Positions 1,133-43,456 of a stretch of 64,000 nt of DNA are shown here, piece by piece. How positions within the stretch are numbered: the stretch's first letter is position 1; every line of letters starts with the position of its first letter. The position numbers were made by a program, and so were the translations under genes. The DNA lies in contig NZ_OY762656.1 of NCBI RefSeq assembly GCF_963666255.1, positions 806,001 to 870,000 of the forward strand. The letters are read 5' to 3'. Source of the DNA: an uncultured Propionivibrio sp. GTDB lineage: Bacteria > Pseudomonadota > Gammaproteobacteria > Burkholderiales > Rhodocyclaceae. The notes below the pieces were generated by a model. It ran no database searches and was not told the DNA's origin. It saw only the letters and a list, made by a program, of their open reading frames with translations.

Positions 1133-2176
1133 ATGACTTCCCCCTTATTCTCGCTCGCCGCCCCCGATCGCGCCCTCGGCGCCGCGCTGCAGCACAAAAT
1201 CGACCGCAAGACCAAGCCGCTCGGCGCGCTCGGACAACTCGAAACGATGGCGCGGCAGATCGGCCTGATCCAGCAAACCGCGACGCCCCGCCTCACGCAT
1301 CCGCAGATCCTGGTCTTCGCCGGTGACCACGGCGCCGCCAAGGCCGGTGTCTCCGCCTATCCGCAGGAAGTGACCTGGCAGATGGTCGAGAATTTCCTCG
1401 CCGGCGGCGCCGGCATCAACGTCTTCGCCCGCCAGAACGGCATCGGCCTGACCGTCGTCGATGCCGGCGTCGCCCACGATTTCGGCGTCCGTGACGGCCT
1501 CGTCGACGCCAAGATCGCCCCGGGAACACGCAACTACATCGAGGAACCGGCGATGACCGACGCCGAGTGCGACGCGGCGCTGGAACGCGGCGCCGCGCTC
1601 GTCCGCGCGCTCGCCGCCGAGGGCTGCAACGTCATCGGCTTCGGCGAGATGGGCATCGGCAACACCGCCTCGGCCTCACTCATTACCCACTGTCTGACCG
1701 GCGTGCCGTTGGCCGAATGCATCGGTCGCGGCACCGGCCTCGACGACGCCGGGCTGCAACGCAAGCGCGCGCTGCTCGACCAGGCGCTCGCCCGCACCGG
1801 CCGCATCACCGATCCGCTCGCCGCGCTGACCGAGTTCGGCGGCTACGAGATCGCCATGATGGCCGGCGCCATGCTGGCTGCCGCGCAGGCCGGCATGGTC
1901 CTGCTGATCGACGGCTTCATCGTCAGTTCGGCCGCGCTCGTCGCCGCCAAGCTGGCGCCCCATTTCACCGAGTACTGCATTTTCTGCCACCACTCGGCCG
2001 AACCCGGTCATCGCGCCCAGCTCGCGGCGATGCAGGTGGCGCCGCTGATTAACCTGGGCCTGCGTCTCGGTGAAGGCACCGGCGCCGCCCTGGCGTATCC
2101 GCTGGTGCTGGCGGCGGTCAATTTCCTCAACGAAATGGCCAGTTTCGAGTCGGCCGGCGTCTCCGACAAGGGCTAA
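1133..2176 (+). CDS. cobT: Nicotinate-nucleotide--dimethylbenzimidazole phosphoribosyltransferase
   Basis: CobT transfers phosphoribose from nicotinate mononucleotide to 5,6-dimethylbenzimidazole, giving alpha-ribazole phosphate, the activated lower ligand of cobalamin. The 347-residue product has the usual length. It shows [16 protein letters not shown] near residue 62, [10 protein letters not shown] near residue 170 and a C-terminal [12 protein letters not shown] whose glutamate (about residue 314) matches the catalytic base of the family. The ATG at 1133 is chosen because the family N terminus begins there; the frame stays open further upstream but that part overlaps the preceding gene. 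CAGGA lies about 10 nt upstream. It works with BluB, encoded at 15118, which makes the base. Confidence 0.96.
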
Positions 2177-2295
2177 GCGCCCCGCGACCAACGCGGTTTC
2201 TGCAGCCGAGTCCTGAACAAAAACAAGGTCTTGGCTTGTGGAAATCCGCAGTTTTCATTCCCCGCCGCCTTGGCGTAAAATGGGCGCGAATTTCA

Positions 2296-2480
2296 GGTTC
2301 CTTGTTCCCCATGGGGAACGGGTGAAACGGGAAGTCGGTGACTCCGCCGTGCGCGGTAATTCCGACGCAGCCCCCCGCTGCTGTAGGCCTGACGAATCCG
2401 GCACGATGCCACTGTGCGACACAATCGCATGGGAAGGCGCCGGAGGAGGAAGACGGCAAGCCAGAAGACCGGCCTGGAAT
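2296..2480 (+). promoter_or_regulatory. Cobalamin (B12) riboswitch
   Basis: The leader between cobT and cbiM contains the ordered landmarks of a B12 riboswitch: an opening GGTTCC, GGGAAGTCGGTGA around 2330, a GCAGCCCCCCGCTGCTGTAGG segment resembling the conserved B12-box core (about 2366-2387), GCCACTGTGCGA (2408-2419), GGGAAGGCGCCGG (2431-2443) and the closing AGACGGCAAGCCAGAAGACC (2451-2470). About 170 nt separate the aptamer from cbiM. By family precedent, adenosylcobalamin binding lowers expression of the genes downstream, here cobalt uptake and ring synthesis. I could not pick out a clear terminator or sequestered ribosome site in the expression platform. Confidence 0.92.
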
Positions 2481-2648
2481 GAATGTGGTGCCAATCCTCG
2501 GGGTGAGGGGTGAGGTTCTGACGATTCGTTGCCGCGCTTCAATGGTCCTCCGTCTACCGCGGACCGGCAGCCCATCCTCTGATCGACTCCCCTTTTTCCG
2601 AGACCGTTGTCATGGTTGTCGTGTCGTTTTCGGAATCAGAGGTGAATC

Positions 2649-3329
2649 ATGCATATCATGGAAGGCTATCTCCCCGTCGAGCATGCCCTCGGCTGGACCG
2701 CCGCCTCGGCACCTTTCGTCGCCTACGGAATCCATGCCGTGCGCAAACGCTTCCGTGACAATCCCGAACAGCGCATGCTGCTCGGCGTCGCCGCCGCCTT
2801 CACCTTCATCCTCTCGGCCCTGAAGCTGCCTTCGGTCACCGGCAGCTGCTCGCACCCCACCGGCACCGGCCTCGGCGCATTGCTCTTCGGTCCCGCCGTG
2901 ATGGCGCCGATCGGCCTCGTCGTGCTGCTCTTTCAGGCGCTGCTGCTCGCCCACGGCGGCCTGACGACGCTTGGCGCCAATGTCTTCTCGATGGCGATCG
3001 TCGGCCCCTTCGTCGCCGCCGGCATCTTCCGCGTCGCCCGCGGCCTGCGCCTGTCACTGGCGCTCAGCGTCTTCCTCGCGGCCTGCCTGTCTGACCTCGC
3101 CACCTACGTCACGACCTCGGTCCAGCTCGCCTGGGCCTTCCCCGACGCAACCGGCGGTTTCGCTGTCTCGCTCGCCAAGTTTGCCGGCATCTTCGCCATC
3201 ACGCAGATCCCGCTGGCGATCAGCGAAGGACTGCTGACCGTCCTCGTCTTCAACGCGCTGGCCCGCTTCAACGCCCAGGAGTTGCGCAGCCTCAAGCTGT
3301 CGACCGACCTGGAAGTCCGCGCGCAATGA
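2649..3329 (+). CDS. cbiM: Cobalt ECF transporter, substrate-binding membrane component
   Basis: CbiM is the substrate-capture (S) subunit of the group I cobalt energy-coupling-factor transporter in the inner membrane. The protein begins MHIMEGYLP, the family N terminus in which the amino group, His2 and a nearby histidine coordinate Co2+; this fixes the start. AGAGGTGA lies just upstream as ribosome site. The 226 residues are mostly hydrophobic with the conserved [13 protein letters not shown] segment at about 60-72. It is the first gene after the B12 riboswitch, and its stop overlaps the start of cbiN (ATGA). Confidence 0.96.
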
Positions 3330-3697
3330 AGAAACGCCCGGTCAACCTGCTGTTGATCCTCGGCGTCGTGCTGCTCTCGGCGCTGCCGCTGTGGCTCGTG
3401 CAGAAACCCGAGACGACACCGGACGGCCAGACGGCGGAGATCTTCACCGGTGCCGACGACAAGGCCAAGAACATGATCGGCGACATCAACCCCGACTACA
3501 AGCCGTGGTTCTCGCCGATCCTCGAACCTGCCAGCAACGAGATCGCCTCGCTGCTTTTCGCGCTGCAGGCGGCGATCGGCGCCGGCGTCATCGGTTATTA
3601 CCTCGGCGTCTCGGTGACGCGCGAAAAATTCCGGCGCGAGGCCGAGAAGAAAGCCGCCGCGCCGACCGCTCCGGAGAACGAACGCAGTGCTGATTGA
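3326..3697 (+). CDS. cbiN: Cobalt ECF transporter accessory subunit CbiN
   Basis: CbiN is a small two-helix membrane protein that CbiM needs to load cobalt. The 123-residue product has an N-terminal transmembrane segment, a periplasmic stretch with [11 protein letters not shown] and [14 protein letters not shown] (the last is typical of the family), and a second transmembrane helix near residues 75-95. A charged, alanine-rich tail makes it slightly longer than common CbiN. It overlaps cbiM by 4 nt and cbiQ by 11 nt, so translation is probably coupled. Confidence 0.92.
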
Positions 3698-4427
3698 GCA
3701 GTCGGCCTACACCAATCGCTGGCGCAGCATCTCCCCGGCCGCCAAAGGTCTGTTCGCGCTCAGCGGCCTCATCGCTTCGTTCGCTGCGGCAACGCCGGCG
3801 ACGGCCGGCATCGTCGCGCTCGCACTGGTCGCCGTGACGCTGTTCGGCGCCGGTATCGGCGGTATGCGACTCGCACGCGTCGCCGCCCCTGCGCTCGGAT
3901 TTCTGCTCATCGGCAGCCTGAGTCTGCTGGTCTCACCGGTACTCGACGCCGGCGGCAGCCTGACGCTGCAATGGCTGCCCGAAGGCAGCGCGCCGTTTTT
4001 CCGTCTCGTCGCGCGTTCGGGTGCGGCGTTGGCGGCGCTCCTCTTTCTGGTACTGACGACACCGCTGATCGACTTGATCGCGCTGATGCGGCGCCTGCGC
4101 TTTCCCGACGTCCTGCTTGAACTGATGGTCGTCTGCTATCGCATGCTCTTCGTTTTCTCCGAAGCGCTGCACGACACGCTGACCGCGCAGGCCGCCCGCC
4201 TCGGCTATGCCACCCCGCGGCTGGCGCTGCGTTCGCTCGGCCAGTTGACCGCCAACCTGGCGGTGCAGGTCTGGTCGCGCGCGCACGACCTGCACATCGC
4301 CGCGCTCGCCCGCAACAACGACGGGCCGCTGCGCTTCATCGAACCGACCTTCGCCGATGCCCGCCGCGATCTCTCGATCGCCGCGCTGGCCGGCAGCATC
4401 CTGATTCTCGGAGCCACTCTCCTATGA
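3687..4427 (+). CDS. cbiQ: Cobalt ECF transporter transmembrane (T) component
   Basis: CbiQ is the T component that couples the ATPase to CbiM. The 246 residues form several hydrophobic helices. The cytoplasmic AARLGYATPRLALRSLG region and a later VQVWSRAHDLHIAALAR correspond to the coupling helices with the A-R-G type motifs that dock on the ATPase. It starts with GTG at 3687, inside the end of cbiN, and its stop overlaps the cbiO start as ATGA. Confidence 0.92.
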   Translation: MLIEQSAYTNRWRSISPAAKGLFALSGLIASFAAATPATAGIVALALVAVTLFGAGIGGMRLARVAAPALGFLLIGSLSLLVSPVLDAGGSLTLQWLPEGSAPFFRLVARSGAALAALLFLVLTTPLIDLIALMRRLRFPDVLLELMVVCYRMLFVFSEALHDTLTAQAARLGYATPRLALRSLGQLTANLAVQVWSRAHDLHIAALARNNDGPLRFIEPTFADARRDLSIAALAGSILILGATLL

Positions 4428-16626: not shown

Positions 16627-16703
16627 GCGCCCGTAGCTCAGTTGGATAGAGTACTGCCCTCCGAAGGCAGGGGTCGGACGTTCGAATCGTCTCGGGCGCG
16701 CCA
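16627..16703 (+). tRNA. tRNA-Arg (anticodon CCG)
   Basis: A 77-nt cloverleaf is visible. The acceptor stem GCGCCCG pairs with CGGGCGC, followed by G and the encoded CCA at 16701-16703. The D arm holds AGCTCAGTTGGATAGAG, the anticodon stem CTGCC/GGCAG closes the loop CTCCGAA with CCG at 16661-16663, and the T loop is TTCGAAT. It decodes CGG. Its 3' half is the left attachment site of the island that follows. Confidence 0.97.
16656..16703 (+). repeat. Left attachment site (attL)
   Basis: This is the 3' half of the tRNA, from the anticodon stem to the CCA. It differs from the right copy only at 16677 (G versus A) and 16691 (C versus T). These two positions pair with each other in the T stem, so the difference is compensatory (G-C against A-T). 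Confidence 0.88.
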
Positions 16704-18919: not shown

Positions 18920-18987
18920 GAGCCCATCCAATGACAAATAAAAACGATCGGGCTACTATCGCCGCTTGTTCTTGGAGCTCAAAGATT

Positions 18988-19710
18988 ATGAAAAAGCAGA
19001 TGTACAACATTGCGGTTTACATCGACATGGAGAACGTCGCCTCAACCGAGTTTGCGCTGGAAGACTTGATGAGCGCGTTGCTCCGCGCAGATGACGAACA
19101 CAACTGCATCTTCGTGATCAAGGCGGCCTACGGTAATCAGATGACTGGCAAGAAGACATTAAAAGAGCAGCTAATCGACCACAACTTTACGCTGATTGAT
19201 ACGCCGAAAATCGGTGCAGAAAAGAACAGGGCCGATCTCTTTATCAGTCTGGACGCTTTCGAAACGCTTTACCTCGGCAACCCAAAGATCGATCGTTACT
19301 GCTTTCTGACCAGTGACTCAGATTTCACGGTCATTGGTGACCGTTTGCGGAAGTACGGGAAGGAAGTCTGGTTGGTCTGTAGAAAGAGGGACAAAGATCG
19401 GGCTATTTTGGCTAAAGCCTTTGACACCTTGCTCTTTCTGGAGGATTTCGCTGAGGCAAAGATCAGAACTTTTGACGACGCAATCGAAAACCTCTTTGTC
19501 AAAGCGCTCCGCAACATCGATCGAAATAAGCTGCCGGTCAATGTCTCAACAGCCAATAACAAGATGAAGGAGCTTGACCCGAGCTTTGATGTTTCCCAGA
19601 CGCAATACAAAAATTTCATGCCGTTAGTGAGGGAAATGACCAGCCGAGGGCATTTGAGATTTTCGACATCATCTGGTGGAGAAAATAGGATTACTGACAT
19701 CCTCATTTAG
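18988..19710 (+). CDS. NYN-domain nuclease with C-terminal LOTUS/OST-HTH-like domain
   Basis: Residues 1-150 show the NYN (PIN-like) metal-dependent RNase pattern of acidic motifs: AVYIDMENV near residue 9, NRADLFISLDAFE near 72 and LTSDSDF near 93, as in the LabA/NicB group. The last 75 residues (DDAIENLFVKALRNI to the end) resemble a LOTUS/OST-HTH RNA-binding domain. I prefer ATG 18988, with GGAG 10 nt upstream; an in-frame ATG at 18931 would add 19 residues without homologous character. The pair with the preceding gene may be an RNA-targeting defence or maintenance module. The NYN domain is well supported; the biological role is not known. Confidence 0.82.
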   Translation: MKKQMYNIAVYIDMENVASTEFALEDLMSALLRADDEHNCIFVIKAAYGNQMTGKKTLKEQLIDHNFTLIDTPKIGAEKNRADLFISLDAFETLYLGNPKIDRYCFLTSDSDFTVIGDRLRKYGKEVWLVCRKRDKDRAILAKAFDTLLFLEDFAEAKIRTFDDAIENLFVKALRNIDRNKLPVNVSTANNKMKELDPSFDVSQTQYKNFMPLVREMTSRGHLRFSTSSGGENRITDILI

Positions 19711-19897: not shown

Positions 19898-20713
19898 TCA
19901 GATTGGCAACTTTTTCTGGCGCTCTAGCATGCGAGCCTCTTCCGCCCGAAGCAGATCCTCCAGTGAAGCGCGGGTATAGCGCGCCGGTTTCGTCGCCTTT
20001 TGCTTCTCCTCCGATAGCGAAGCAAGACCACCAGAAGTTTCGGCATCAGTGGCTACCGTCGTTTTTTTTGCCGACAGAAACTTGCCCAGCCACGGCAACG
20101 GCTTATTCATATCCGGTCCCGGCCAGGGCATCTCCGGATGACAGGCTTGCAGAATCCGATGCGCACGCCGATAGATCTTCCCGAGCTGCAAGCGGACCCC
20201 GCTGTGGAGCGGTCGATGTTGAAGCTCGGCAAGATAAGACTTCAACCGCGGATCGCCTTCCTTGGCCAGATGGTCGACATAGGCCGAAATTTCCTGCTGC
20301 GTCGTTGGCAACATCCACCACGACCAATGCTTGCCCCCGCCAAAAAAAGAAGGCCGATTCGTCTTCAGCAGGATATATTCGCCATTCCAGATAAGCCGCT
20401 CCGATGAAAGGCGGGCATCGCGCAGCGTCTCCTCTTCGTGAATACGACCTGATCCGTCCGTCGCAACAAGGAACCAGAGGTAGCGACCATCGGGGAGCTG
20501 GCAGACAAGGAAACGAGACGTCGCCACTTTCTTCTTGCGCAGCGTGTAGCGCCTGACATCCTTGATGTCCGTATCGTATTTCTCGGAGAACTTGTAGGCG
20601 AGTTCGTCCAGCTTATGGGCCGCCACGGTGCCGCCCGTGTGGTGGTGATACCCCTTCGGAACAATGCGCAGCAGGTACTGCTGCGCACGGGTCTGACTGT
20701 CGAAAATCTGCAT
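19898..20713 (-). CDS. Unknown 271-residue island protein
   Basis: I do not recognise the family. The N-terminal 130 residues look like a compact alpha/beta domain (RYLWFLVATDGSGRIHEEE, RLIWNGEYILLKTNRPSFF). A middle helical part holds ELQHRPLHSGVRLQLGKIYRRA, and the C terminus is charged and probably disordered. It has no signal peptide or membrane helix. The gene is convergent with the NYN gene and divergent from the structured RNA region that begins about 230 bp away. Its codon use is intermediate. It may be a mobile-element housekeeping gene, but nothing in the sequence proves it. Confidence 0.7.
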   Translation of the reverse strand: MQIFDSQTRAQQYLLRIVPKGYHHHTGGTVAAHKLDELAYKFSEKYDTDIKDVRRYTLRKKKVATSRFLVCQLPDGRYLWFLVATDGSGRIHEEETLRDARLSSERLIWNGEYILLKTNRPSFFGGGKHWSWWMLPTTQQEISAYVDHLAKEGDPRLKSYLAELQHRPLHSGVRLQLGKIYRRAHRILQACHPEMPWPGPDMNKPLPWLGKFLSAKKTTVATDAETSGGLASLSEEKQKATKPARYTRASLEDLLRAEEARMLERQKKLPI

Positions 20714-20940
20714 GGATTACTTCCCTTCATATAAAAAAACAGGTCATGGTCGTCGCTAGGCACGTCGTCCGGGCAGACTAGGCGCCGAGGCCAAGTCCTT
20801 GATGCAAAAGCTATCGCTTCCAATCGTTGTGCTAGCTATATGAAGGTGGACAGGAGGCGAAATTTTTCCGAGCCAAACACCACGCGAAATTACACATCCA
20901 TGTCACGCATCTCCTAGCTCAGTGATAAGGATTAGCGTGC

Positions 20941-22137
20941 ATGGCGCCACACGGCTCCCTGCTCGGTGAGGGTCCGCCCCATGTGTCTCGGTAACGGGAT
21001 GCATCGGGCGGGCCGCCACCCTGCATAGCCGCCGTTATTCCTCTTCTGGGCCTGGAGCCCCACCCGGTTTAGCCACCGGACGCCTGAGACCGCCAATCTC
21101 AGGTGCACACTGCTTGGCGCCCATTGCGGAGAAATTCGCATGATGGGTGCGAGGGCGAGCGCCTCGGGTAATCCCTCCCGCAAGGGAGACTAAACCGAGG
21201 CTGTTCAGCCCATACCTTGCGGCCGCGTTCACGCGGTCGTGGAGGTGTGCGAGCAGGAAACGGGTACCACGCGGAAATGCGTGGATGCCCTGGTTTTCGT
21301 GAAAGGCGGTGGAAGTCCGCCCCGTGGGGATGCAGGAAAGCTGCGTAACACGTGCCACTTGGGATGGCAGTCAAGGACGAAGAAAAATCGTCGTCGGCAT
21401 CATGCTGCAAGTGCAGCAGAGATGCCGGAGGAGCCGAGGATGAAAGGGGTCGCGCCCAAGAGTCCAAAGCCCTGGCTGATAGCTTAACCCGGCAAAGCGC
21501 CCGTTACAGGGTGCGATTAGTGGAGTTGCTGAAGACCCCGCAAGGGGCTGGCGCTAGGGGATGAAAAACCCTGCGAATGACCGAATCTGGCTTGAGCTCG
21601 TAATCCGATGGCTTTACCACCTTCGCGCGGATGAAATCCAGGGGATGCGCCTGGAAATCGAGGTTCAATGTTCAGGGTCACGTCTAGGCAACGTAGAAGT
21701 AGCGAAAATCTAACTGCGGAAATCTCGGCATGGGTCGGGGCGAGTGGCATCGCATCGGCACAGGAGTCACGATCCTGGAATAACCATGCAGGGGTGAGAG
21801 CGAGGTCCGAGTAGAGGGAAAACCGTGTCGCCGAAAGCGACCGGGAGGCAGCAATGCCTGCCAGGGTTGGCACCCTGGCAACCGCCGCAAGGCGGGGAAC
21901 TCGAAAGGCCGAGGCAGTGTGAAAAGAGGAATTGCTCGCCGGGAGGCGAGGCGGTCGTGTGGCCGGCATCGGGGTTGGCGCCCCGGTGTCGGTGTGGTGT
22001 GCTGTGCTGGATCTGCTTGGCGGCGGATCCGGCGCTTTCGCGTTTGATTAACCTGCTTACTTGCATCAGGAGGTATTTCGTAATTCAGGGCATCCGACTC
22101 CCATCACCCAGGGAGCTGTGATGCATTGTGTTTTTTT
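20941..22137 (+). ncRNA. Candidate giant structured RNA (about 1.2 kb) with intrinsic terminator
   Basis: This GC-rich tract has no credible gene on either strand but is packed with hairpins. Examples: 20971-20979 with 21006-21014; CCTCGG/CCGAGG (21162-21200) enclosing CTCCC-GCAA-GGGAG; GGCCGCG-TTCA-CGCGGTC (21221-21238); GGCGG/CCGCC (21305-21321); CCCC-GCAA-GGGG (21536-21547); AGGCA-GCAA-TGCCT (21846-21859); GCCAGGGT-TGGC-ACCCTGGC (21860-21879); CCGCC-GCAA-GGCGG (21882-21895); CTCGCC-GGGA-GGCGAG (21935-21950); and a 13-bp stem with TGGC loop (21963-21992). The GNRA loops occur only when read on the + strand, which fixes the orientation. A final hairpin (GCATC 22090 to GATGC about 22124) and T7 at 22131-22137 look like its terminator. 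GOLLD- or ROOL-like giant RNA is possible; the 5' end is approximate. Confidence 0.7.
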
Positions 22138-22148
22138 AATCAGGAGAC

Positions 22149-22177
22149 CATGTGCCGAGAATTCTCTCAGGCACATG
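22149..22177. repeat. Perfect inverted repeat
   Basis: CATGTGCC (22149-22156) pairs with GGCACATG (22170-22177), and the loop contains the palindrome GAGAATTCTC. There is no adjacent T tract, so it is more likely a protein-binding site or RNA-end structure than a terminator. Confidence 0.5.
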
Positions 22178-22335
22178 TGTCTTGCGTTTCCTTAAAGTCT
22201 CTTTTTTCTCTGGAAAAACATATTAAAACAACAACTTAAATTTGACGGACGGTGTCTGTCGACGTAAACTCATTTCAAGCAATCAATTCTCTATTTGAGA
22301 AGCGCAAAGGGCTCGCAACCCGTTGTGGAACAACG

Positions 22336-22363
22336 CCCGTGTGGATGTCCACACGGGTTTTTT
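22336..22363 (+). terminator. Intrinsic terminator
   Basis: CCCGTGTGG (22336-22344) pairs perfectly with CCACACGGG (22349-22357) and six T residues follow. A smaller hairpin GTTG-TGGA-CAAC lies just before it (22322-22334). No gene precedes it closely, so it may end a short RNA starting after 22180. Confidence 0.8.
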
Positions 22364-22416
22364 GCTTTAGAGGGTCTGGATTCTTTATTCAGCGGAACAA
22401 TAGACATGGAGAAACA

Positions 22417-26614: not shown

Positions 26615-26706
26615 TTTCTACTCAATTCGCTGTGCAGCGAATATTGGCTTTTCATCGAATGTTCGATATATTTCAGTTATTCGCTGAACAGGAAATAACG
26701 TCCGCC

Positions 26707-27786
26707 ATGACCGAGTCGACCCACATGGAACATGTCCTGATCGAACAGCTCTTGGATTCACTCCGGGGGTTGCCGGACGTGCATGCCGAGCTGACTCAGT
26801 CGGAATCGACTATTCAGGCTACCGGCCGCGTCGACGCGAAGATTGATCTACACATTGCCGGTAGATCGATCGTCTTGCTGGTTGAGGCAAAGAAGTCCGT
26901 CTATCCCCGAGATGTGCGCCAGGCGTTATGGCAGTTGAGGTCGCTACAGCACGGTCGCTACGCCGATGTGCAGCACCTGCTGATCGCTGAGTCGTTCTCT
27001 CCGGGGGCGAAAGAACTGCTCAGAACCGAGCGCATCGGCTACTTCGATAGCGGTGGTAGCCTGTTCCTGCCGGCCACCGGTGCCTACGTCTACATCGACA
27101 AGCCGGCTCCGAAGACTTTGGAAAAGTCCGTGCGGTCGCTCTTCTCCGGGCGACGCGCCCAAGTTTTGTATGCGCTCCTGGTCAATCACGAGGAGTGGTT
27201 TGGTGTTACCGAAGTAGCCGAACGGGCGCAGGTGGCTCCATCCACGGCCTCGGACGTACTAAGCGAATTGGAGCGGTTCGACTGGTTGGTGTCGCGAGGA
27301 CAGGGGCCGAGCAAGGAGCGGCATCTGCGCGAACCAAGTGCGTTGCTCGATGCTTGGGCGAAGCAGTTCGCCACTCAGCGGGCGCCCGTGCTGCGCCGGT
27401 ACTTCGTACCCGGATTGAAATCTGATGCGCTGATCGAACGGCTCGGCCACATGTTCGATGCGCATCAGGTCGCTTACGCAGTGAGCTACGAAGCCGCTGC
27501 ACAGCGCTATGCCCCCTTCTTGTCGGGCATCTCTCAGGTGCGATTTCGATTGCTACCCAGCACAAGTGCAGAGACGGCAATGGCTGAGCTGGGTGCGCGC
27601 GTCGTCAATGAAGGGGCGAACCTCGCGGTCATCGAGACAAAGTCGGCGGGAGAGTTGCTGTTTCGGCAAAACGTCGGGGGCCTTTGGTTGGCCAGTCCGG
27701 TCCAGGTCTATCTCGACCTCTTGCGCGGTGAAGGCCGCGCCAAGGAAATGGCAGAGCACTTACGCAAGGAAAGGATCGGATTCTGA
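26707..27786 (+). CDS. AbiEi-like antitoxin/regulator with winged helix
   Basis: The protein has a restriction-endonuclease-like N-terminal part (RVDAKIDLHIAGRSIVLLVEAKKSVYP, residues about 38-64), with the D...EAK order of PD-(D/E)XK folds. A winged helix follows near 165-215 (WFGVTEVAERAQVAPSTASDVLSELERF), then a C-terminal domain ending in GGLWLASPVQVYLDLLRGEGR, characteristic of AbiEi-family antitoxins. The next gene encodes an AbiEii-type nucleotidyltransferase and overlaps by one base. The start is uncertain: ATG 26707 is used, in-frame ATGs also occur at 26632, 26659 and 26725, and none has a strong ribosome site. By family precedent it binds its own promoter and opposes the partner. 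Confidence 0.75.
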   Translation: MTESTHMEHVLIEQLLDSLRGLPDVHAELTQSESTIQATGRVDAKIDLHIAGRSIVLLVEAKKSVYPRDVRQALWQLRSLQHGRYADVQHLLIAESFSPGAKELLRTERIGYFDSGGSLFLPATGAYVYIDKPAPKTLEKSVRSLFSGRRAQVLYALLVNHEEWFGVTEVAERAQVAPSTASDVLSELERFDWLVSRGQGPSKERHLREPSALLDAWAKQFATQRAPVLRRYFVPGLKSDALIERLGHMFDAHQVAYAVSYEAAAQRYAPFLSGISQVRFRLLPSTSAETAMAELGARVVNEGANLAVIETKSAGELLFRQNVGGLWLASPVQVYLDLLRGEGRAKEMAEHLRKERIGF

Positions 27787-28700
27787 TGGCAAAACCTGCA
27801 ACGTTCGACGGCTACAGCGACCAGTACACGGTGGACTGCGAACGCGTCCTCGTGACGCTGCTGCGCGGTCTCGGACCGTGGAAGGAGTCGGTCTACCTGA
27901 TCGGGGGACTCACGCCGCGATATCTCGTTGCCGAGCGGCCTCCGGTAGTACCAGCGCACGCAGGCACTCTGGATGTGGACATCGTGATCGACCTGCAAAT
28001 CCTAGCCAATACCGACGCGTATCACACACTCGAAGACAACCTCAAGAAGATGGGGTTCGAGCGGGCGGTGAACAGCGCCGGTACAAAGCTTTCCTGGCGT
28101 TGGCAGACCCGCACTGAACATGGTGCGTTGATGGTGCTGGAACTGTTGGCTGATGCGCCAGATATCGCTGGTGGCAAGGTGCAGCCGCTGCCGACCGAGG
28201 GCACCATCTCGGCGCTGAATATCCCGCACTCGTCCATCGTTTTCGACCTACATCAGGTCACGGAGATCCAGGCTGAACTGCTCGGTGGCAATGGGGTTGC
28301 TACAGAAAAGGTCAAGCACGCCAATCTGGTCAGCTTCACTTGTTTGAAGTCTTTCGCGTTTGATCAGCGCTTCGAACGCAAAGATGCCCACGACCTGATT
28401 TACTGCATCGAGCACGCACCCGACGGCCTAGATGCTGTGGCGAAGTCCTTTCGCGCGGAACAGACTGGCAAGCATGGCGAAATCATCGAGGCTTCGCTGG
28501 CAATTCTGCGGAGTCGGTTCGCAGACGACGAAAAAGTTGAAGGCTATCGGAAGGATGGGCCGGTGGCTGTTGCCAGGTTCGAGTTGGGGGAGGGGGATGA
28601 GGCAGAACAGCGTGAGGCGAGAGCATTGCGCCAAAGACAAGCGAGTGACGTGATCGCACAGCTTCTCGACCGGGTTGCCCAAGACGAGGGGGACGCATGA
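27786..28700 (+). CDS. AbiEii-like nucleotidyltransferase
   Basis: The 304-residue product has the minimal nucleotidyltransferase signature YLIGGLTPRYLV near residue 38 and GTLDVDIVIDL near 61, the paired aspartates expected to hold metal. The middle and C-terminal parts (KSFAFDQRFERKDAHDLIYC near 190) fit AbiEii/AbiGii toxin relatives, which modify RNA and stop growth. The gene begins in the stop of the AbiEi-like gene (TGATG) and overlaps the nuclease gene by 4 nt. A type IV toxin-antitoxin or abortive-infection role is likely; the third partner is unusual. Confidence 0.75.
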   Translation: MAKPATFDGYSDQYTVDCERVLVTLLRGLGPWKESVYLIGGLTPRYLVAERPPVVPAHAGTLDVDIVIDLQILANTDAYHTLEDNLKKMGFERAVNSAGTKLSWRWQTRTEHGALMVLELLADAPDIAGGKVQPLPTEGTISALNIPHSSIVFDLHQVTEIQAELLGGNGVATEKVKHANLVSFTCLKSFAFDQRFERKDAHDLIYCIEHAPDGLDAVAKSFRAEQTGKHGEIIEASLAILRSRFADDEKVEGYRKDGPVAVARFELGEGDEAEQREARALRQRQASDVIAQLLDRVAQDEGDA

Positions 28701-29614
28701 GCTTTCCTGCCGATATCAAGGGCTGCATGAAGGACTGCATCCTGTCGCTGTTTTGGCCGCGAAAGGACATCGTCAGCTTCTTCGAGAAGCATGGCTGTAC
28801 GAAGGCTGAGATAGCTTCCGTCCAGATTGAGGGGGAGAACACTCTCAAACGGCATGAAGTCATCGAAACGCTGTTCGCAGTGCTGGCTGCTCGGTCGGAC
28901 AGCGGCCTTGGGCCTTTCCGCGCCATGCTCCAGTCCCTGTTGAACTGGTCGCACTTCGATCCGTACTACTTCGACAAGCTGCGCAAGCTGGATCGAGCTA
29001 CTGCGACCCGGAATTTGGAGCATCTGCGCCAACTGCAGGAGATTCGGGACGCAAGGATCAAGGTGGATCGAGCACGCCGCGCAGCACAAGAAGCGGAGCG
29101 TCAGCAACCCACCACGACGCTTGAACAGTTGCGCACGGAATACCTTGATTTGCTCGCCAACAAGACTTCACGGCAGCAACGCGGCTACGCGCTTGAGCGG
29201 ATCCTGACCGAGCTGTCCCGGCTCTCGCGGCTGGAGGCCACCGAAGCCTTTCGTGTCAACGGAGAGCAAATTGACGGCGCGGTGAAGTTCGACGGCGAAC
29301 ACTACCTGATTGAAGCCAAGTGGCAGGAGAGGACTGCCAGCAACGAGCCGGTTTATCAATTTGCAGGCAAGGTGTCTGGAAAGCTGTATGGGCGCGGCCT
29401 GTTCATATCTGTGAATGGCTTCAGCCCAGAAGTGATTAGGAGCCTGGTCATGGGCAAGGAGATCCAGACATTATTCATCGACGGCGAAGACTTGATCTTG
29501 GTGTTGGAGGGACATCTCACGTTGCGGGACATGATCGATCGCAAAGTGAAGGCAGCCCAAACGAAGGGATTGATCTACGTTCATCCGATTTCGGGTGCGG
29601 AGAAGAAATCGTAA
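28697..29614 (+). CDS. Mrr-like PD-(D/E)XK restriction endonuclease
   Basis: Residues about 1-150 are helical with a charged coiled-coil-like stretch (IRDARIKVDRARRAAQEAE). The C-terminal half holds a restriction endonuclease fold: RGYALERILTELSRL, then QIDGAVKFDGEHYLIEAKWQ near residues 192-211, giving the catalytic E...D...ExK set, followed by GKLYGRGLFISVNGF. Such domains in type IV restriction enzymes cut modified or foreign DNA. Its start overlaps the AbiEii-like gene (ATGA), so it is made as part of the same unit. Confidence 0.78.
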   Translation: MSFPADIKGCMKDCILSLFWPRKDIVSFFEKHGCTKAEIASVQIEGENTLKRHEVIETLFAVLAARSDSGLGPFRAMLQSLLNWSHFDPYYFDKLRKLDRATATRNLEHLRQLQEIRDARIKVDRARRAAQEAERQQPTTTLEQLRTEYLDLLANKTSRQQRGYALERILTELSRLSRLEATEAFRVNGEQIDGAVKFDGEHYLIEAKWQERTASNEPVYQFAGKVSGKLYGRGLFISVNGFSPEVIRSLVMGKEIQTLFIDGEDLILVLEGHLTLRDMIDRKVKAAQTKGLIYVHPISGAEKKS

Positions 29615-30950: not shown

Positions 30951-32112
30951 TCAAGATCATTCCTATAAGTTGTTGGGCAAACGCATGGCTTGGGCCCTGG
31001 GCTATGTGCCCCTGCTTAATGTGCCTGTAACCCTTCCTGCGGGCACGAACTCCCGCGCGGGCACGGACTTGACTGATGCAGACGTGCTTGGATTCCGCTT
31101 TAGCCCGAGCGGAGGTGTGTCTAGGCTTTTGGTCGACTGCAAGACAGCCAGCGGCCGTGCGGTTGACCGTGTCTTGTGGGTCAGAGGCCTGCAAGATGTT
31201 CTCCACCTGGAGGAGCTCTACCTCTTCAAGAAGAATATCCCTGAAAGTGCACGATGGCTTGCGCACGAACTGAAGGTGAATTGCATCGACGAAGCGGAAC
31301 TGCATGAACTAGATACCCGACTCGGGTTGAGTCGCTTGAAAGGACCCTATTTCGATGGGATGGGATACGACAGCATCAACGCTTTGCTCACTTTTCCAAA
31401 GGCTAGCGAGTACCGCGCTTTGGTGCAGTTTCTCACCACGGGTATTTGGACGCTGAAACCTGCGCACAGGGTCTTAACCCTGTTAAACCTAGGGCAGCAG
31501 AATCAACTGCATCGAAAGCTCCGACCGGATGACCGGGCTCACGTCTGCCTTGTCCTTCTCGCCACTCGTGCACTTGCCATCAGTCTCGGCCTATTGATAA
31601 GCGAGCTGAACGTACTGGACGTGCTCAAAATCGAAGCTCGACTGCGTGAAGAGCTTCATGGCGGGGTAGAGTCGCTGGCCCAAAAGGTGCGTTTTGCAGA
31701 TGCCATCCACCGGCTCACTGGCGAGGCCGATTCCGAGCAAGCTATCGATCACAAGGAATTCCCGCGGCTGCTCGAAGAGGTCAACCGACTATTGGTCCGA
31801 CGCTACGCGCTGAACGATGCCATTCGTATCACCGATTTGGCGCTGCACTACTTTGCCGCTGGCGCTGGATCTCTACCTCGCCATTTGAGCGGAAGTGACT
31901 CGAATCTCTCGGTGAAGATGGCGTCCGACATGCTCGCTCTTTTCGTTAATAGCAACGCGCTCGAAATCAGTTTTTCCCGGACCATCATCGGGCTACTGGC
32001 GGCAACGCCAGAAACTGTTCCGGATCCCGCAGATGAGCGGCGCACGGAAAGTGAAGGCAAAGGGGAGCAGATTCAGCTGCTGTCACCGCTGCCCCCCTTG
32101 GAGGAGAAATGA
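30937..32112 (+). CDS. PD-(D/E)XK nuclease-like protein
   Basis: I choose GTG 30937, with GAGG 8 nt upstream, giving 391 residues; the frame is open further upstream but only inside the preceding gene. Residues about 33-75 read TDLTDADVLGFRF, then VSRLLVDCKTASGRAVDRVL, the D...DxK order of a PD-(D/E)XK nuclease core that recognises or cuts DNA. The remaining 300 residues are helical and unfamiliar. Its stop overlaps the kinase start as ATGA. The nuclease call rests on the motif and may be an inactive fold. Confidence 0.6.
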   Translation: MSSSDQDHSYKLLGKRMAWALGYVPLLNVPVTLPAGTNSRAGTDLTDADVLGFRFSPSGGVSRLLVDCKTASGRAVDRVLWVRGLQDVLHLEELYLFKKNIPESARWLAHELKVNCIDEAELHELDTRLGLSRLKGPYFDGMGYDSINALLTFPKASEYRALVQFLTTGIWTLKPAHRVLTLLNLGQQNQLHRKLRPDDRAHVCLVLLATRALAISLGLLISELNVLDVLKIEARLREELHGGVESLAQKVRFADAIHRLTGEADSEQAIDHKEFPRLLEEVNRLLVRRYALNDAIRITDLALHYFAAGAGSLPRHLSGSDSNLSVKMASDMLALFVNSNALEISFSRTIIGLLAATPETVPDPADERRTESEGKGEQIQLLSPLPPLEEK

Positions 32113-33848
32113 ATCCAACCGATAACGAAACCGAGGTTGATTCGCTCCCAGCCGACCTTAGTCCGGTCTGGATTCAAGACCAGAACTGGAAAACACGCTG
32201 GGAGAAGGTTGAAGAACTAGAGGGCGGCGGCCAAGGTGAAGCGTATCAGGCGCGCCGTCGCTCCGACGGCAAGATCGGGTTTCTCAAGATCATCAAATCG
32301 AAGAACGATCCTGAGCGCCGTGCTCGTTTTTTTCGCGAAGCAACGGCCTACGACAGTTTCGGCATTGCCGGAATTCCGAGACTCATCGAGAGTAACGCGC
32401 AACTTCACGCAGATGGGACCGTCACTCCTTTCATCGCCACCGAGTTCATCGGCGGACGCACGTTACGGGCGTGGCGCGAATCCCAACAAACTGTCTCGAT
32501 TGAGAAAGCGATAACGTTCACCTCACGCCTGCTCGACATCCTGGAGGCCTGCCACGCGCAGGGGTGCGTACATCGAGATATCAAGCCCGATAACATCATC
32601 CTGGAAGGTGGTTCTCCGGATCGCGTCTGGCTACTCGATTTCGGAATCAGCTATCATAATCTTGCCGACATCGACTTTCAGACGGAACATTGGCAAGAGG
32701 TGGGCAACCGGTTTCTCCGACTTCCCGAATTGTCGGCTGGAAGTCGGTTAAAGCAGGATCCAAGATCGGACGTCTGCTTTGCCGCTGGCATTCTGTTTTA
32801 TGTGCTGACTGGCGATCATCCTGATGTTCTCGAAGACAGCGACGGCCGATTGCCTCACCAGCGAACAGATGCACTGGCGAAGCTTCAGAACGCAGCACCG
32901 CACCGGCTCGCACTACTCCTCACCTTGTTCGATGACGCTTTTGCCACCCGAATAGTGAATCGATTCGCTAGTGTGCAGGCGATGCGCGGACGAATGGAAA
33001 AAATCATGCAAGATCATCCCCCTGGAGCGTCAGCAGAAGATGACCTACAAGCTATTCGTGAATTGCTCGATACGTCTGTCAATCGTCAAGTGGCTGCGAC
33101 AGTAGAAAACTTGACGAATGCGCTGCATGAGGTGCATCAGGTTTTCAACCGGATGCAGCAGAGCCTCAGCAGCAATCTCTTGATCAGTCAGACTGGGTGG
33201 TCCGTGACCAGGGACAGCGGTCAAAACACGCTGTTTTGGACGAGGCAAGGCTCGGTTGATCGCGTTCTCTCGGTCACCTATGAAGCCGTCCCTGCTGGTG
33301 AGGAACTTCTCGTGCGCATGTCGGGCGAGACCGTGTATCGCACCGACTTTGCCGCACCGGTGTATGGCCGAGAGTTTCAGCGCTCGGTTACTGCTTGGCT
33401 GGCATCACGGCTCCGTACCGCTCTGGGTGATCCCAGTGCGCTTCCTCATGAAGCCGATGCTTTCCGGGAGACCAAGCCTTTGGGATCGCTTCAGGCTGCC
33501 GCGATCGAAGCGAAGCGCCGCGGCTGTTCAGTTCTTGCTTTTGTATACGACCCAACCCAGCCAGAGCGCGGAAAGCTGGGATGGGCACTCAACTACTTCC
33601 TGCAGAACCGGCGCACACGCGACCTCATGAGCGGGAATTTCGTCACCGCGCTTGTGCCGCTTTCGGCGATCACTGCCATCTCCAACATCCTTGCGCAGCA
33701 ATCGATGGAGGAATCCCGCTGGGTCGTGTTGGACCAGCAACTTCGTCCGGTGGAGCAACAGGTCATCTACGCTAATCCACAGGAGGCTGAGAGGATTGTT
33801 GGCGATCTGGTGGTTCGTTATCCCGCAGGTCCGAGGCCGCCGGAGTGA
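32109..33848 (+). CDS. Ser/Thr protein kinase with C-terminal effector-like region
   Basis: Residues 20-300 form a Hanks-type kinase: glycine loop EGGGQGEAYQAR near 38, the lysine in GFLKIIKSK near 60, catalytic HRDIKPDNIIL near 155, and metal-binding LLDFGISY near 175. No transmembrane helix follows, unlike PknB-type kinases. The last 250 residues are not obviously a known sensor; the final 110 (CSVLAFVYDPTQPERGKLGW to ANPQEAERIVGDLVVRY) have a thioredoxin-like or UAS-like beta-alpha rhythm, which I offer with low confidence. It is the last gene of a six-gene run on this strand. Kinases next to nucleases occur in several anti-phage systems (Stk2, PglW of BREX), but this arrangement is not one I know. 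Confidence 0.85.
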   Translation: MNPTDNETEVDSLPADLSPVWIQDQNWKTRWEKVEELEGGGQGEAYQARRRSDGKIGFLKIIKSKNDPERRARFFREATAYDSFGIAGIPRLIESNAQLHADGTVTPFIATEFIGGRTLRAWRESQQTVSIEKAITFTSRLLDILEACHAQGCVHRDIKPDNIILEGGSPDRVWLLDFGISYHNLADIDFQTEHWQEVGNRFLRLPELSAGSRLKQDPRSDVCFAAGILFYVLTGDHPDVLEDSDGRLPHQRTDALAKLQNAAPHRLALLLTLFDDAFATRIVNRFASVQAMRGRMEKIMQDHPPGASAEDDLQAIRELLDTSVNRQVAATVENLTNALHEVHQVFNRMQQSLSSNLLISQTGWSVTRDSGQNTLFWTRQGSVDRVLSVTYEAVPAGEELLVRMSGETVYRTDFAAPVYGREFQRSVTAWLASRLRTALGDPSALPHEADAFRETKPLGSLQAAAIEAKRRGCSVLAFVYDPTQPERGKLGWALNYFLQNRRTRDLMSGNFVTALVPLSAITAISNILAQQSMEESRWVVLDQQLRPVEQQVIYANPQEAERIVGDLVVRYPAGPRPPE

Positions 33849-35869: not shown

Positions 35870-36892
35870 ATGGTACGGCGTTTTTGCTGTCCGGCGTGCT
35901 TCGACGATCGAGCCTTGCGTGATGAACTCTTTCCATCGCTTAATCCCGATCAAGGAACTTGCGATTTCTGCGGGACCACTGATACTCAACTCGTTGAACC
36001 AAGCAAGCTCGCGAATTATTTCGAGCTACTTGTTAACGTCTATGAACTGAGTGATGAGGGGAAGTCGCTGGTCGAATGGATGAAGGACGACTGGCAGCTT
36101 TTCAGCCATCATCGAATGGATATTGCCCACGCGAAGGAATTGCTTAGCGAGATTCTTGATGACGGAGAAATCGTAAGAAGCTGCTTTGCCCCTTCGGCAA
36201 GCTACATCAGCGAAGGCCTTGCGCAGTGGGACAAACTGCGCGACGAGATGATGTATGCCAACCGCTGGTTTCTCGACGTCGCCATCGACCTGGACCGTCT
36301 CCGCCAGTTGCTCGACATGCTGATTGCGCCGCCATTACCTCGACAATGGTATCGCGCTCGCATCCGCACCGACGATGAGGCTTTTCCGATAGAGAAGATG
36401 GGAGCTCCGCCCAGACGTCGCTCGTCACATGGTAGGGCCAATCCTGCCGGTATCCCGTATCTCTATCTGGGGTCGCTTCCCGATACGGCAGCAGCCGAGA
36501 TTAGGCCCCATACCGGTGAAGTTGCTTGTGTCGCTGATTTTACGATCCCCGAGATCAAGGCAGTGGACTTACGCAACCCACGCAAGCTGGTTTCACCTTT
36601 CATCTTGACCGACGCGAGCGAGATTGGACAACTACGAGCCGACTTGCCTTTTCTCGAACGCTTGGGGGAAGAGCTGACTCGACCAGTGCAGCCGGCCGGG
36701 GCAGCGATCGACTATATTCCGAGCCAGTACCTGTGTGAATTTATTAAGAAGAGCGGCTTTGATGGCGTAGTCTATCGTAGCTCCGTCAGCGACGGCATAA
36801 ACCTTGCGTTGTTCAACCCCGAGCAGGCGATTGGCGGGGGCGTGACACTCTACAACGTGACCAAGGTATCGGTCGAAGTAGGCGCCGCCTAA
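35870..36892 (+). CDS. RES-domain protein with N-terminal zinc-binding motif
   Basis: The N terminus has CCPACFDD and, about 25 residues later, CDFCG, a likely zinc knuckle typical of HEPN/RES-associated starts. The C-terminal 180 residues match the RES domain: WYRARIRTDDEAF, PAGIPYLYLGSLPDTAAAEI (with the conserved R/E residues around it) and FDGVVYRSS. RES toxins are related to ADP-ribosyltransferases and degrade NAD+ in RES-Xre pairs. No Xre antitoxin is encoded nearby; instead sce7726 and sce7725 precede it, which may act as sensor and control. Confidence 0.82.
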   Translation: MVRRFCCPACFDDRALRDELFPSLNPDQGTCDFCGTTDTQLVEPSKLANYFELLVNVYELSDEGKSLVEWMKDDWQLFSHHRMDIAHAKELLSEILDDGEIVRSCFAPSASYISEGLAQWDKLRDEMMYANRWFLDVAIDLDRLRQLLDMLIAPPLPRQWYRARIRTDDEAFPIEKMGAPPRRRSSHGRANPAGIPYLYLGSLPDTAAAEIRPHTGEVACVADFTIPEIKAVDLRNPRKLVSPFILTDASEIGQLRADLPFLERLGEELTRPVQPAGAAIDYIPSQYLCEFIKKSGFDGVVYRSSVSDGINLALFNPEQAIGGGVTLYNVTKVSVEVGAA

Positions 36893-37038: not shown

Positions 37039-38121
37039 TCAGCCAAGTTTCTTGGCTAGGTCTGATGCCCTCGGGTGGTAGTAGCGCTTTAACATTTGCA
37101 GATCCTTGTGCCCGGTGACGCTTGCCAGCTCCAAAATATTCGATAACTTTTCTGCAAGCCGACTGGTGGCTTCGTGCCGTAAGTCGTGAAAACGCAAGTT
37201 GGTAAGAAAGATCGGCGGAAGCTTTTTTCCGCTCGCCGCGCAATCCGTCTTGTAGGCCTTTATTGCACGTTCCAGCGCGCGTTCCCATGCCATTTGTAAG
37301 GCATTTTGCGTGATCGGGAATACCTGTCCGTCGATGGATCGCGGCATCTCTGTCAAGATTGCTAATGCCTTGCTGGAAAGCGGTATTTCCCGAGCGTCCC
37401 CGTTCTTTGTGAGCGGCAAATAGGCCGTTGATTTTTTGAAGTCGATATTGTTCCACGTAAGGGAGATGAGTTCGCCCTGCCGCATTGCGGTCTCGAGGGC
37501 CAACTTGACGAGGGGCAGCATCCAGCGGTTACGTTTTGTGGCATCACCGACGCTACCGACCTCTAGGGCTGCGAGTAGGTAAGCTTCTTCGTGCGGCTCT
37601 AGCCGTCTGTCACGTGCATTCTGAACCTTGGGCCGACTAACCAATGCCAGGGGATTTTCCGGCATGGAGATTCCCCATTCGCGGCGTGCATGCTCGATTA
37701 TTTGGCGAAAAATACCAAGCTCTCTGTGAACGGTCGCGGGCTTGACTGGCTTGCAGGGCTTGGTCGGATCGCCTTTCAAGCGCTCGTCACGGTACTTGGC
37801 GAAATCGTAGGCGGAGAGGGTGGCGAGCGGGCGCGACGCGAGCGTATGTCTCTGCATCGCTTTGAGCCGGAGTGTTTCGGTCGCACTACCGCGATGCAGA
37901 GGGGTGACCTCAACACGGTAGCGGTTCATGATTTCACCAAGCGTCGTGCGTTCGGCGGCGGCGCGACTAATGAACACCCCGCGCACCATCTCGGATTCAA
38001 TCACCGAAGCCCAAGCCTCGGCCTGAGCCTTGGTGTTGAATGTTTTGCTTTGAGGAGGGAAGCCCTTTTTGCGAATCTGGGCCTCCCACTGGTATTCACC
38101 CCGCTTGCGAAATGTTGCCAT
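37039..38121 (-). CDS. Tyrosine-type site-specific integrase
   Basis: The 360-residue protein is the recombinase of the island. It has an N-terminal arm-binding/SAM-like region (MATFRKRGEYQWEAQIRKKG) and a catalytic domain with Arg214 in AMRQGE, a lysine in LPLTKNG, HDLRH at 312-316, the histidine of TGHKD (338) and the tyrosine in RYYHP (347/348). The start is taken at ATG 38121; the open frame extends 23 codons further but that part covers the repeat region near the att site. The gene points inward with its start about 160 bp from attR, as usual for tRNA-integrating islands. Confidence 0.93.
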   Translation of the reverse strand: MATFRKRGEYQWEAQIRKKGFPPQSKTFNTKAQAEAWASVIESEMVRGVFISRAAAERTTLGEIMNRYRVEVTPLHRGSATETLRLKAMQRHTLASRPLATLSAYDFAKYRDERLKGDPTKPCKPVKPATVHRELGIFRQIIEHARREWGISMPENPLALVSRPKVQNARDRRLEPHEEAYLLAALEVGSVGDATKRNRWMLPLVKLALETAMRQGELISLTWNNIDFKKSTAYLPLTKNGDAREIPLSSKALAILTEMPRSIDGQVFPITQNALQMAWERALERAIKAYKTDCAASGKKLPPIFLTNLRFHDLRHEATSRLAEKLSNILELASVTGHKDLQMLKRYYHPRASDLAKKLG

Positions 38122-38168
38122 GACTATTCTGCGAAATATGACATGAGGCGATAGTGGCAGAATTTTCG

Positions 38169-38192
38169 TGGTGTGGCAATAATGTGGCAAAA
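38169..38192 (+). repeat. Island-end direct repeat, right copy (possible integrase arm site)
   Basis: Same orientation and 22 of 24 bases identical to 16784-16807, with two TGTGGCAA units. It lies between the integrase start and attR, about 90 bp from the site, and may bind the integrase or repress its promoter. Confidence 0.5.
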
Positions 38193-41576: not shown

Positions 41577-41665
41577 CCTGGCTTTACATACTCAGCGGCA
41601 TCGTCGCTGTCGGATTGCTTGTCTATCTGATTGCCGCGCTGCTTAATCCGGAGGATTTCTCATGA
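41573..41665 (+). CDS. kdpF: K+-transporting ATPase subunit KdpF
   Basis: The 30-residue peptide [20 protein letters not shown] and [10 protein letters not shown] is a textbook KdpF: one membrane helix ending in the LxxPE-F motif. KdpF stabilises the KdpABC complex in the inner membrane. The start overlaps the previous small gene and the stop overlaps kdpA, both as ATGA. Confidence 0.93.
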
Positions 41666-43440
41666 CCTCACATGCCTGGATTCTCCTCGGTTTGTATATG
41701 ACGGTCCTGGCGTTTTCGGCAAGGCCGCTCGGCGTCTATATCGCCAAGGTAATGGCAGGTGAGTTCGCCGTCGTTCGCAAAACCGAGTCACCGCTGTACC
41801 GCTTATGCGGGATTCGATCCGATGAGGAAATGGGCTGGCTGAAATACAGTTTTGCCATCCTGTTATTCAATGCGATCGGCGTACTTGCAGTCTATGGATT
41901 GCAGCGTCTGCAAATCTGGCTGCCGCTCAATCCCCAGGCTTTCGGTAACGTCAGCCCGGATTCGGCATTCAACACGGCGATCTCGTTCGTCACCAATACC
42001 AATTGGCAAGGCTACGCCGGCGAATCGACGATGAGCTATCTGACGCAGATGCTGGCACTCACGGTTCAGAATTTCCTTTCCGCAGCGACCGGGATTGCTG
42101 TCGTCATTGCCTTGATCCGCGGTTTCGTCCGCCACAGTGCCGCAACCATCGGCAACGCCTGGGTCGACCTGACACGGGCCACGGTTTACGTGCTGCTGCC
42201 GATTTCACTCGTCTTCGCCGTCTTCCTGGTCGGTCAGGGCGTCATTCAGAACTTCGACGGCTACAAAGATGTAACGACACTAGAAGCCATCCGATACGAC
42301 AGTCCCAAGCTCGATGCAGCAGGTCAGCCGCTCAAGAACGAGAAAGGTGACCTAGTGACGGAACTGGCCGAGACAAAGACGCAGGCGCTGGCCATGGGAC
42401 CGGTCGCCTCACAGGAAGCCATCAAAATGGTGGGAACCAACGGCGGCGGATTCTTCAACGCCAATTCGGCGCACCCCTATGAGAATCCGACGCCACTGGC
42501 GAACTTCGTGCAAATGCTGGCGATTTTCCTGATCCCCAGCGCCTTGTGCGTCACTTTCGGTAGGATGGTCGGAGACAACCGACAAGGCTGGGCAATATTC
42601 GTTGCCATGGCAGTGATGTTCATCGGTCTCGCCACCGCCGCGATGGTCTTCGAACAGCAGGCCAATCCTCTGCTGACCCAACTCGGCGTCGATCCGATCG
42701 CCGGCAACATGGAAGGCAAGGAAACGCGTTTCGGCATCGCCGAGTCAGGACTCTTCGCAGCAATTACGACGGCGGCATCGTGCGGGGCGGTTAACGCCAT
42801 GCACGATTCCTTCACGCCGCTCGGCGGCATGATTCCCTTGATTGCCATGCAACTCGGCGAAGTCGTGTTCGGCGGTGTCGGTACAGGGCTGTACGGCATG
42901 TTGGTGTTTGCCATCCTAGCCGTGTTCATTTCCGGGCTGATGATTGGCCGTACGCCTGAGTACCTTGGCAAGAAGGTCGAATCCTACGAAATGAAAATGA
43001 CGTCGATCGCGATTCTTGTGACGCCGCTTGTCGTCTTGATTGGCACGGCGATTGCCGTCATCGCTACCGATGGTCGCGTGGGTATCGCCAATCCCGGCGC
43101 CCACGGTTTTTCCGAAATCCTCTATGCCTTCACGTCTGCGGCCAACAACAACGGCAGCGCCTTTGCCGGACTTTCCGCAAACACGCCGTTTTACAACATC
43201 CTGCTCGGTCTGGCCATGTGGTTCGGCCGCTTCGGTGTCATCGTTCCGGTGCTGGCGATTGCCGGTTCGCTGGCGGCCAAGAAGCGACTGGCTGTAACCG
43301 AGGGTACCTTGCCGACACACGGGCCGCTGTTCGTCGTGCTGCTGATCGGGATCGTGTTGCTGGTCGGCTTGCTCAATTACGTTCCTGCACTGGCACTGGG
43401 TCCGATGATCGAGCATCTGTTGCTAGGCTTGACCCACTGA
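41662..43440 (+). CDS. kdpA: K+-transporting ATPase channel-like subunit A
   Basis: KdpA selects and conducts K+ in the high-affinity uptake ATPase. The 592-residue protein has about ten membrane helices and the four selectivity loops, of which [12 protein letters not shown] (near residue 112), [19 protein letters not shown] (near 255), [12 protein letters not shown] (near 370) and [12 protein letters not shown] (near 493) are visible. Length and order are normal. Confidence 0.96.
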
Positions 43441-43456
43441 GCCGGAGGAGAAAAAA

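Follow-up and report, generated by a model that had tools for sequence, protein, structure and literature searches.

A probable circularly permuted group II ribozyme beside an acpG homologue on a Propionivibrio chromosome island

The gene-free tract and its setting

The window, by which we mean the whole stretch of 64,000 nucleotides that was analysed, contains a tract (Table 1) in which no open reading frame exceeds 150 amino acids. The tract belongs to a low-GC stretch beginning at a tRNA-Arg gene (16627-16703), and its own GC content is 0.604, compared with 0.512 and 0.521 in the measured flanks. A preliminary description of this DNA had reported a tract devoid of credible genes, marked by a jump in GC content and set in an element integrated in a tRNA gene; the tract, the GC jump and a position beside a tRNA gene hold. 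Elsewhere in the window, an AbiEi-like regulator (Pfam AbiEi_2, 26632-27786) is followed by a gene for 304 amino acids without a Pfam match (to 28700), the two looking like a type IV toxin-antitoxin pair. Further genes of the defence-island type encode an Mrr-like endonuclease (28697-29614), a protein kinase (32109-33848) and a RES-domain protein (35870-36892), and a SIR2-like protein (52699-53562) is encoded behind a ParA/AAA_31 ATPase (51686-52702). Downstream of the integrase lies an operon of KdpA, a P-type ATPase, KdpC, KdpD and a response regulator (41662-50387), and the chromosomal part of the window carries a cobalamin riboswitch (2278-2491) upstream of cobalamin-type genes.

Table 1. 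Features of the RNA locus, in positions of the window
Feature	Positions	Strand	Remarks
acpG homologue, 271 aa	19898..20713	-	divergent from the RNA, upstream
Leader motif TATATGAAGGTGG, conserved	20837..20849	+	possible promoter or start region; by eye
Gene-free tract	20941..22137	+	structured RNA
P1-like long hairpin, GTAA loop	20965..21020	+	MFE -42, z -7.2, 0/200 shuffles as good
P2-like hairpin	21064..21079	+	aligns with the ggggctgccaagcccc hairpin of the homologues
Split D4, 3' strand (CACACTGCTT)	21106..21115	+	pairs 10/10 with 21912-21921
D5	21117..21150	+	lower stem of 9 bp and upper stem of 5 bp, CGC triad with G.U; GAAA loop; AU bulge of 2 nt
J5/6 and D6	21151..21204	+	unpaired branch A 21194; 3' splice site predicted to follow 21204 (+/-2 nt)
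Linker, predicted excised circle	21205..21246	+	42 nt, with stem-loop; stem z -3.3
Predicted 5' splice site GUGCG	21247..21251	+	GTGTGCGA in 6/6 subgroup RNAs
D1-D3	21247..21911	+	RNAalifold, six sequences; delimited as one block
Split D4, 5' strand (AGGCAGTGTG)	21912..21921	+	pairs with 21106-21115; covariation
3' hairpin, GGGTTGGCGCCC apex	21961..21994	+	z -4.8
3' hairpin, TTGG loop (CTTGGCGG)	22006..22033	+	z -5.3
Terminal hairpin and T7	22090..22137	+	doubtful terminator; hairpin stem 22090-22124
Phage-type integrase	37039-38190

Eight GNRA loops cap stems of at least four pairs on the + strand and none does so on the - strand, whereas first-order Markov sequences (n = 1000) gave a + strand mean of 0.82 such stems and never reached eight. 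Four of the loops are GCAA (21180, 21540, 21851 and 21887) and one is GGGA (21941), exactly the counts given in the preliminary description; the others are GAAA (21131 and 21274) and GTAA (20991). The two stems said to share an apex were likewise recovered, with GGGTTGGC(A/G)CCC at 21864 and 21972; the second of these apices tops a wobble-containing stem of 14 bp within 21961-21994. When the 21200-22140 segment was folded against 20 shuffles, z-scores of -3.4 for the + strand and -2.8 for the - strand were obtained; since both strands beat their shuffles, fold energy alone does not decide the strand, and the + strand is chosen by the GNRA loops, domain 5 (D5) and the covariation described below. 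Of the hairpin and T7 proposed to terminate the RNA, the hairpin exists (22090-22124; z -2.3, 5/200 shuffles equal or better), but the T7 (22131-22137) begins 6 nt past its stem and the pair is absent from a terminator scan, whose sole listing was 22335-22358 (2.3 expected in shuffles), so that a terminator is only weakly indicated. TTGGC(A/G) occurs four times (21114, 21867, 21975 and 22017), three times in a hairpin tip, and P2-like loops carry GCCA(A), by eye the complement of the TTGGC in several hairpins; several competing loop-loop contacts between these tips and the P2-like loops are possible.

Homologues and the neighbouring acpG gene

A distant blastn search matched a 4.7-kb plasmid of an uncultured bacterium (JX194161.1, here L003) over 30% of the query at 67% identity, in an alignment spanning the entire RNA. 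On this plasmid, a hypothetical CDS (pM02_c2_01) is annotated antisense to the RNA, within its span (4078-4308, -), and is probably no gene. A second, weak plasmid match of the JX194161.1 homologue fell immediately after the reverse transcriptase of a group II intron from Streptomyces, which drew attention to D5. Judged by D5 pairing, a genome pattern scan yielded two true members among the 118 matches listed, one from a MAG of an uncultured member of the Nitrosomonadales (L126) and one from Rhodoferax antarcticus (L197), and more may exist. Within the Rhodoferax family, 5 of 399 genomes matched, comprising the query genome, two real homologues (L269 and L270) and two chance matches. The window RNA and these five homologues form a subgroup of six with domain order, D5 and 5' splice site in common: all of them have GTGTGCGA and a D5 whose triad is CGC, whose loop is GAAA and whose bulge is AY, the order D5-D6-linker-GUGCG is retained in 6/6, and the distance from the start of D5 to GTGTG is 116-128 nt across six separate replicons. 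D1-D3 of the other members are 56-64% identical to those of the window (0.61-0.64 in the six-sequence comparison). A more distant homologue (L221) resides on the Serpentinimonas maccroryi plasmid pSMB1. The first three homologues can be aligned with the window from ~20955 to ~22035, and hairpins in three homologues match the position of the P1-like hairpin. Motifs like TATATGAAGGTGG, in the form ATGAAGGTGG or ATGAAGGGGG, were seen by eye upstream of the RNA in L003, L126, L197, L269 and L221; a promoter scan listed nothing at 20837..20849. A search of 99 genomes related to the host gave matches in two, its own genome and one with a 36-bp match (E 9e-4) taken as chance. Five pattern scans of viral contigs (47, 0, 0, 8 and 28 stretches) gave none with a D5 or the motif set, and the phage records contained no match to the RNA. 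In pPNAP05, the place of the RNA was estimated from intergenic gaps, but the search matched other plasmid sequence and did not locate it.

The text of Roth et al. (PMC8637638) describes acpG as a frequent, non-obligatory neighbour of circularly permuted (CP) group II RNAs and AcpG as the protein linked to that class. A tblastn search with the acpG homologue of the window recovered 13 plasmid records at E<=0.01, including records from Thermus aquaticus, T. oshimai, Paraburkholderia, Pandoraea and Gluconobacter. The window protein is 27% identical to a T. aquaticus protein (E 2e-12), which in turn is 55% identical to the protein in the AcpG position of T. thermophilus pTT8; compared directly by blastp, the window and pTT8 proteins are too distant (E 0.4). 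AcpG homologues are encoded upstream of the RNA in L003, L126, L197 and L269, and the 3.1-kb locus of L270 contains no acpG match. Matches to AcpG at E 1e-5 or better were found in 8 of 369 genomes of the taxonomic class, and the homologue had no match in Pfam, PHROGs, NCBIfam or the PDB sequences. Near acpG, on the other strand, an NYN-domain protein, possibly an RNase, is encoded at 18931-19710. The 4.1-kb Pseudoalteromonas plasmid pMtBL (L219) also encodes an AcpG homologue, with 2.2 kb (1815-4086) that hold neither a listed gene nor a D1 match.

Group II-like domains, the linker and a putative split D4

The sequence at 21117-21150, GCGCCCAUU-GCGGA-GAAA-UUCGC-AU-GAUGGGUGC, has the length (34 nt) and geometry (9-5-4-5-2-9) of a group II D5 and forms all 14 of its 14 pairs, whereas none of 150 simulated windows contained a site with at least 13. 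A scan for this geometry at that threshold identified it as the sole site in the window, and even at 12 or more pairs just one D5 was present across the whole window. The following D6 has an unpaired A before its closing stem. In a hand alignment of four RNAs, both bases had changed in 4/14 pairs of D5 and 10/14 of D6, or 14/28 for D5-D6 together, and the D6 of the window shows one mismatch among pairs otherwise retained; the D6 count was taken by hand because MAFFT misplaces the D6 of the window relative to the other RNAs. For D1-D3, RNAalifold on the six RNAs gave 163 pairs, 95 of them double-changed, with standard pairs in 913 of 971 cells, and a whole-length fold of four sequences had 117 of 301 pairs double-changed, the misaligned D6 stretch included. 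The large, ornate, non-coding + strand RNA of the preliminary description is thus backed by conservation and by covariation among homologues, which it had named as a check.

That description had also stated that an Rfam match to an ordinary group II intron would speak against it, and here the outcome is divided. D5-D6 of L003, L126 and L197 exceed the RF00029 cut-off of 40 (42.5-43.3 bits), the window copy does not match RF00029 even at E 10, and the domain order is permuted. With D5-D6 upstream of D1 and a single D5 in the window, an ordinary group II intron was rejected.

The 3' splice site was assumed to fall between NU and UCAG, which places it 9-10 nt from the branch A; in ordinary group II introns this distance is 7-8 nt, shorter than here. 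The linker lengths depend on the same assumption and come to 42 nt in the window, 41 in L003, 40 in L126 and 39 in L197, within the 15-86 nt range of CP group II RNAs. At the other end of the linker, GUGUGCGA is a GUGYG end of the group II intron type, 128 nt past the start of D5. In the Paraburkholderia matches, GTGCGA is aligned with GGGCGA, the published 5' site, on which grounds the 5' splice site of the window was set at 21247; the same alignment supports common descent. An IBS1-EBS1 pairing is clean (6 bp) in the window copy only, the same loop pairing less well in the other three.

One base upstream of D5 ends a 10-nt strand whose partner, some 660-680 nt past the 5' splice site, follows the last D3-like element. 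The two strands form 10/10 pairs in the six RNAs and 9/10 in L221, and across the seven sequences both bases have changed in 8 of 10 pair columns, whereas strands swapped between lineages (n = 36) formed a mean of 5.3 pairs and a maximum of 8. Between the Rhodoferax and plasmid RNAs, one compensated pair differs. In single sequences, 46, 85, 73, 58 and 364 of 1000 shuffles were as good, which is not significant, and the case for the helix is made by its fixed position and covariation. Ordinary introns have D4, the site of the protein gene, between D3 and D5, so the helix sits where D4 would be expected if its distal part had been broken. It therefore looks like a D4 that has been split, with the break of the permutation inside this domain. 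A helix of 11 bp occupies the corresponding place in L228, a GGGCG-type RNA beside acpG (15/500 shuffles as good); the split D4 is not clear in L227 (326/500) or pTT8 (176/500).

According to the text of PMC8637638, five assayed CP group II members self-process into a circle and a branched RNA, and from these relatives we infer the splicing chemistry. The RNA would run P1, P2, the 3' strand of D4, D5, D6, linker, D1, D2, D3, the 5' strand of D4 and the 3' hairpins, with D5 and D1 building the group II active site and the D4 halves pairing with each other. The D6 branch adenosine (21194) would attack the downstream GUGCG 5' splice site (21247), whereupon the freed 3' end of the linker would attack the 3' splice site at ~21204/21205. 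The expected products are a circle of ~42 nt and a T-shaped branched RNA in which D5-D6 are joined 2'-5' to D1-D4. As a guess at function, such a branched RNA, perhaps in the grip of AcpG and capable of reverse splicing or of cutting nucleic acid, might serve the mobile element that carries it.

Class assignment and comparison with known systems

CP group II RNAs, once called T-large, are a rare ribozyme class of ~290 sequences (Roth et al. 2021, PMC8637638), to which, in the open library searched, this was the only paper devoted for natural members. Its text gives the domain order as D5-D6-D1-D2-D3(-D4), with reversed splice sites around a linker of 15-86 nt, motifs resembling GUGYG and AY, and a loop-loop pseudoknot between P2 and D2. 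The window RNA has this order (D5 at 21117, D6 at 21151, 5' splice site at 21247, D1-D3 to 21911). The published consensus, which is not definitional, has GGGCG, an AGC with unpaired A and a UN bulge in D5 (PMC8637638), whereas all six subgroup RNAs have GUGCG, a CGC that is paired with a G.U, and AY. RNAs beside acpG can mix these letters, L227 combining CGC and a UC bulge with GGGUG, and L228 the same two with GGGCG. Because the letters vary within acpG-linked RNAs, we take them as subgroup features and file the RNA as a CP group II member. A D1 profile built from four subgroup RNAs matched 5 of 23 acpG loci (best E 1.2e-7, weakest 0.039; the other 18, the pTT8 locus among them, gave no match), none of 47 viral loci and none of 13 ordinary-intron loci; the last set omits L254 and L259 as too short, shows a D5 with at least 13 pairs in 6/13 and may in some cases lack D1 at contig ends.

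On the observed domain order, motifs, covariation and adjoining acpG, and on a splicing chemistry argued by analogy, we assign the tract to the CP group II (T-large) class of circularly permuted group II ribozymes, with a probability of roughly 0.92. The canonical letters of D5 and of the 5' splice site, together with an L003 D5 nearly equal to that of an ordinary Streptomyces intron, would also fit a permutation that arose from an ordinary CGC-triad intron, independently of the published class. We consider this unlikely, given that D1 matches acpG-adjacent RNAs of the GGGCG type and none of the 13 ordinary-intron loci, that acpG is common to both, and that mixed-letter RNAs exist (L227 and L228). 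Less probable still is tandem debris, in which a 3' intron end would be followed by the 5' part of a second group II intron without joint function: the genus is rich in group II introns (RF00029 in 17 of 59 relatives searched) and the D5 is similar to one from an ordinary Streptomyces intron, but the own genome has no RF00029 match, the order and spacing recur in six separate replicons, and compensatory changes in both halves and in the helix joining them constitute a long-range covariation that largely refutes this reading.

Least probable of all is a large RNA of the GOLLD, ROOL or OLE type with another chemistry, which size, ornate fold and mobile setting would suit and which is opposed by the lack of an Rfam match and by a core that group II D5, D6 and 5' splice site explain. 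The preliminary description had likened the setting to that of GOLLD and ROOL, declining to assign the RNA to either, and the likeness gives way to that of a permuted group II ribozyme: GOLLD, ROOL, OLE and HEARO gave no match, whether the window was searched at the gathering threshold or 20700-22400 with E values as high as 10. Such weak Rfam matches as that segment gave stayed far under the cut-offs, and GOLLD/ROOL and the other Rfam families were rejected.

Within the CP group II class, the window RNA may represent a distinct, undescribed subgroup with ordinary catalytic letters (GUGCG, CGC triad and AY bulge) and a covarying split D4, a tentative proposal to which we give somewhat less than an even chance and which sets the RNAs apart from the published consensus and text rather than from the ~290 sequences. 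If true, the subgroup would show the origin of the class in a single break in D4, the domain that houses the protein gene of an ordinary intron; pairing between the two pieces of D4 would still close the ribozyme, and AcpG would have replaced the lost maturase as partner. The subgroup would thereby offer, in the split D4, a structural account of the permutation. The covariation-backed pair of RNA and acpG occurs on a chromosome island as well as on a 4.7-kb plasmid, and the subgroup is a short list of natural templates for studying the splicing chemistry, the helix of D4 and whether AcpG is needed.

Among known systems, GOLLD and ROOL resemble the window RNA as large structured RNAs of mobile elements and differ in their core. 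With ordinary group II introns (RF00029 for D5-D6), it shares the D5 geometry, the bulged A of D6, GUGYG and a D1-D3-like region; it is set apart from them by D5-D6 preceding D1, by the lack of an intron-encoded protein and, by analogy, by products that would be a circle and a branched RNA, where an intron yields a lariat and joined exons. From CP group II RNAs it departs in the consensus letters given above and in the split D4 helix, which the text of PMC8637638 does not mention. It shares with them the order D5-D6-linker-D1-D2-D3, a bulged branch A, a short linker with a stem-loop, P1- and P2-like hairpins upstream of D5 and the absence of an internal ORF. Moreover, by the D1 profile, its D1 is similar in sequence to that of acpG-adjacent RNAs, and acpG lies near and divergent, as on T. 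thermophilus pTT8.
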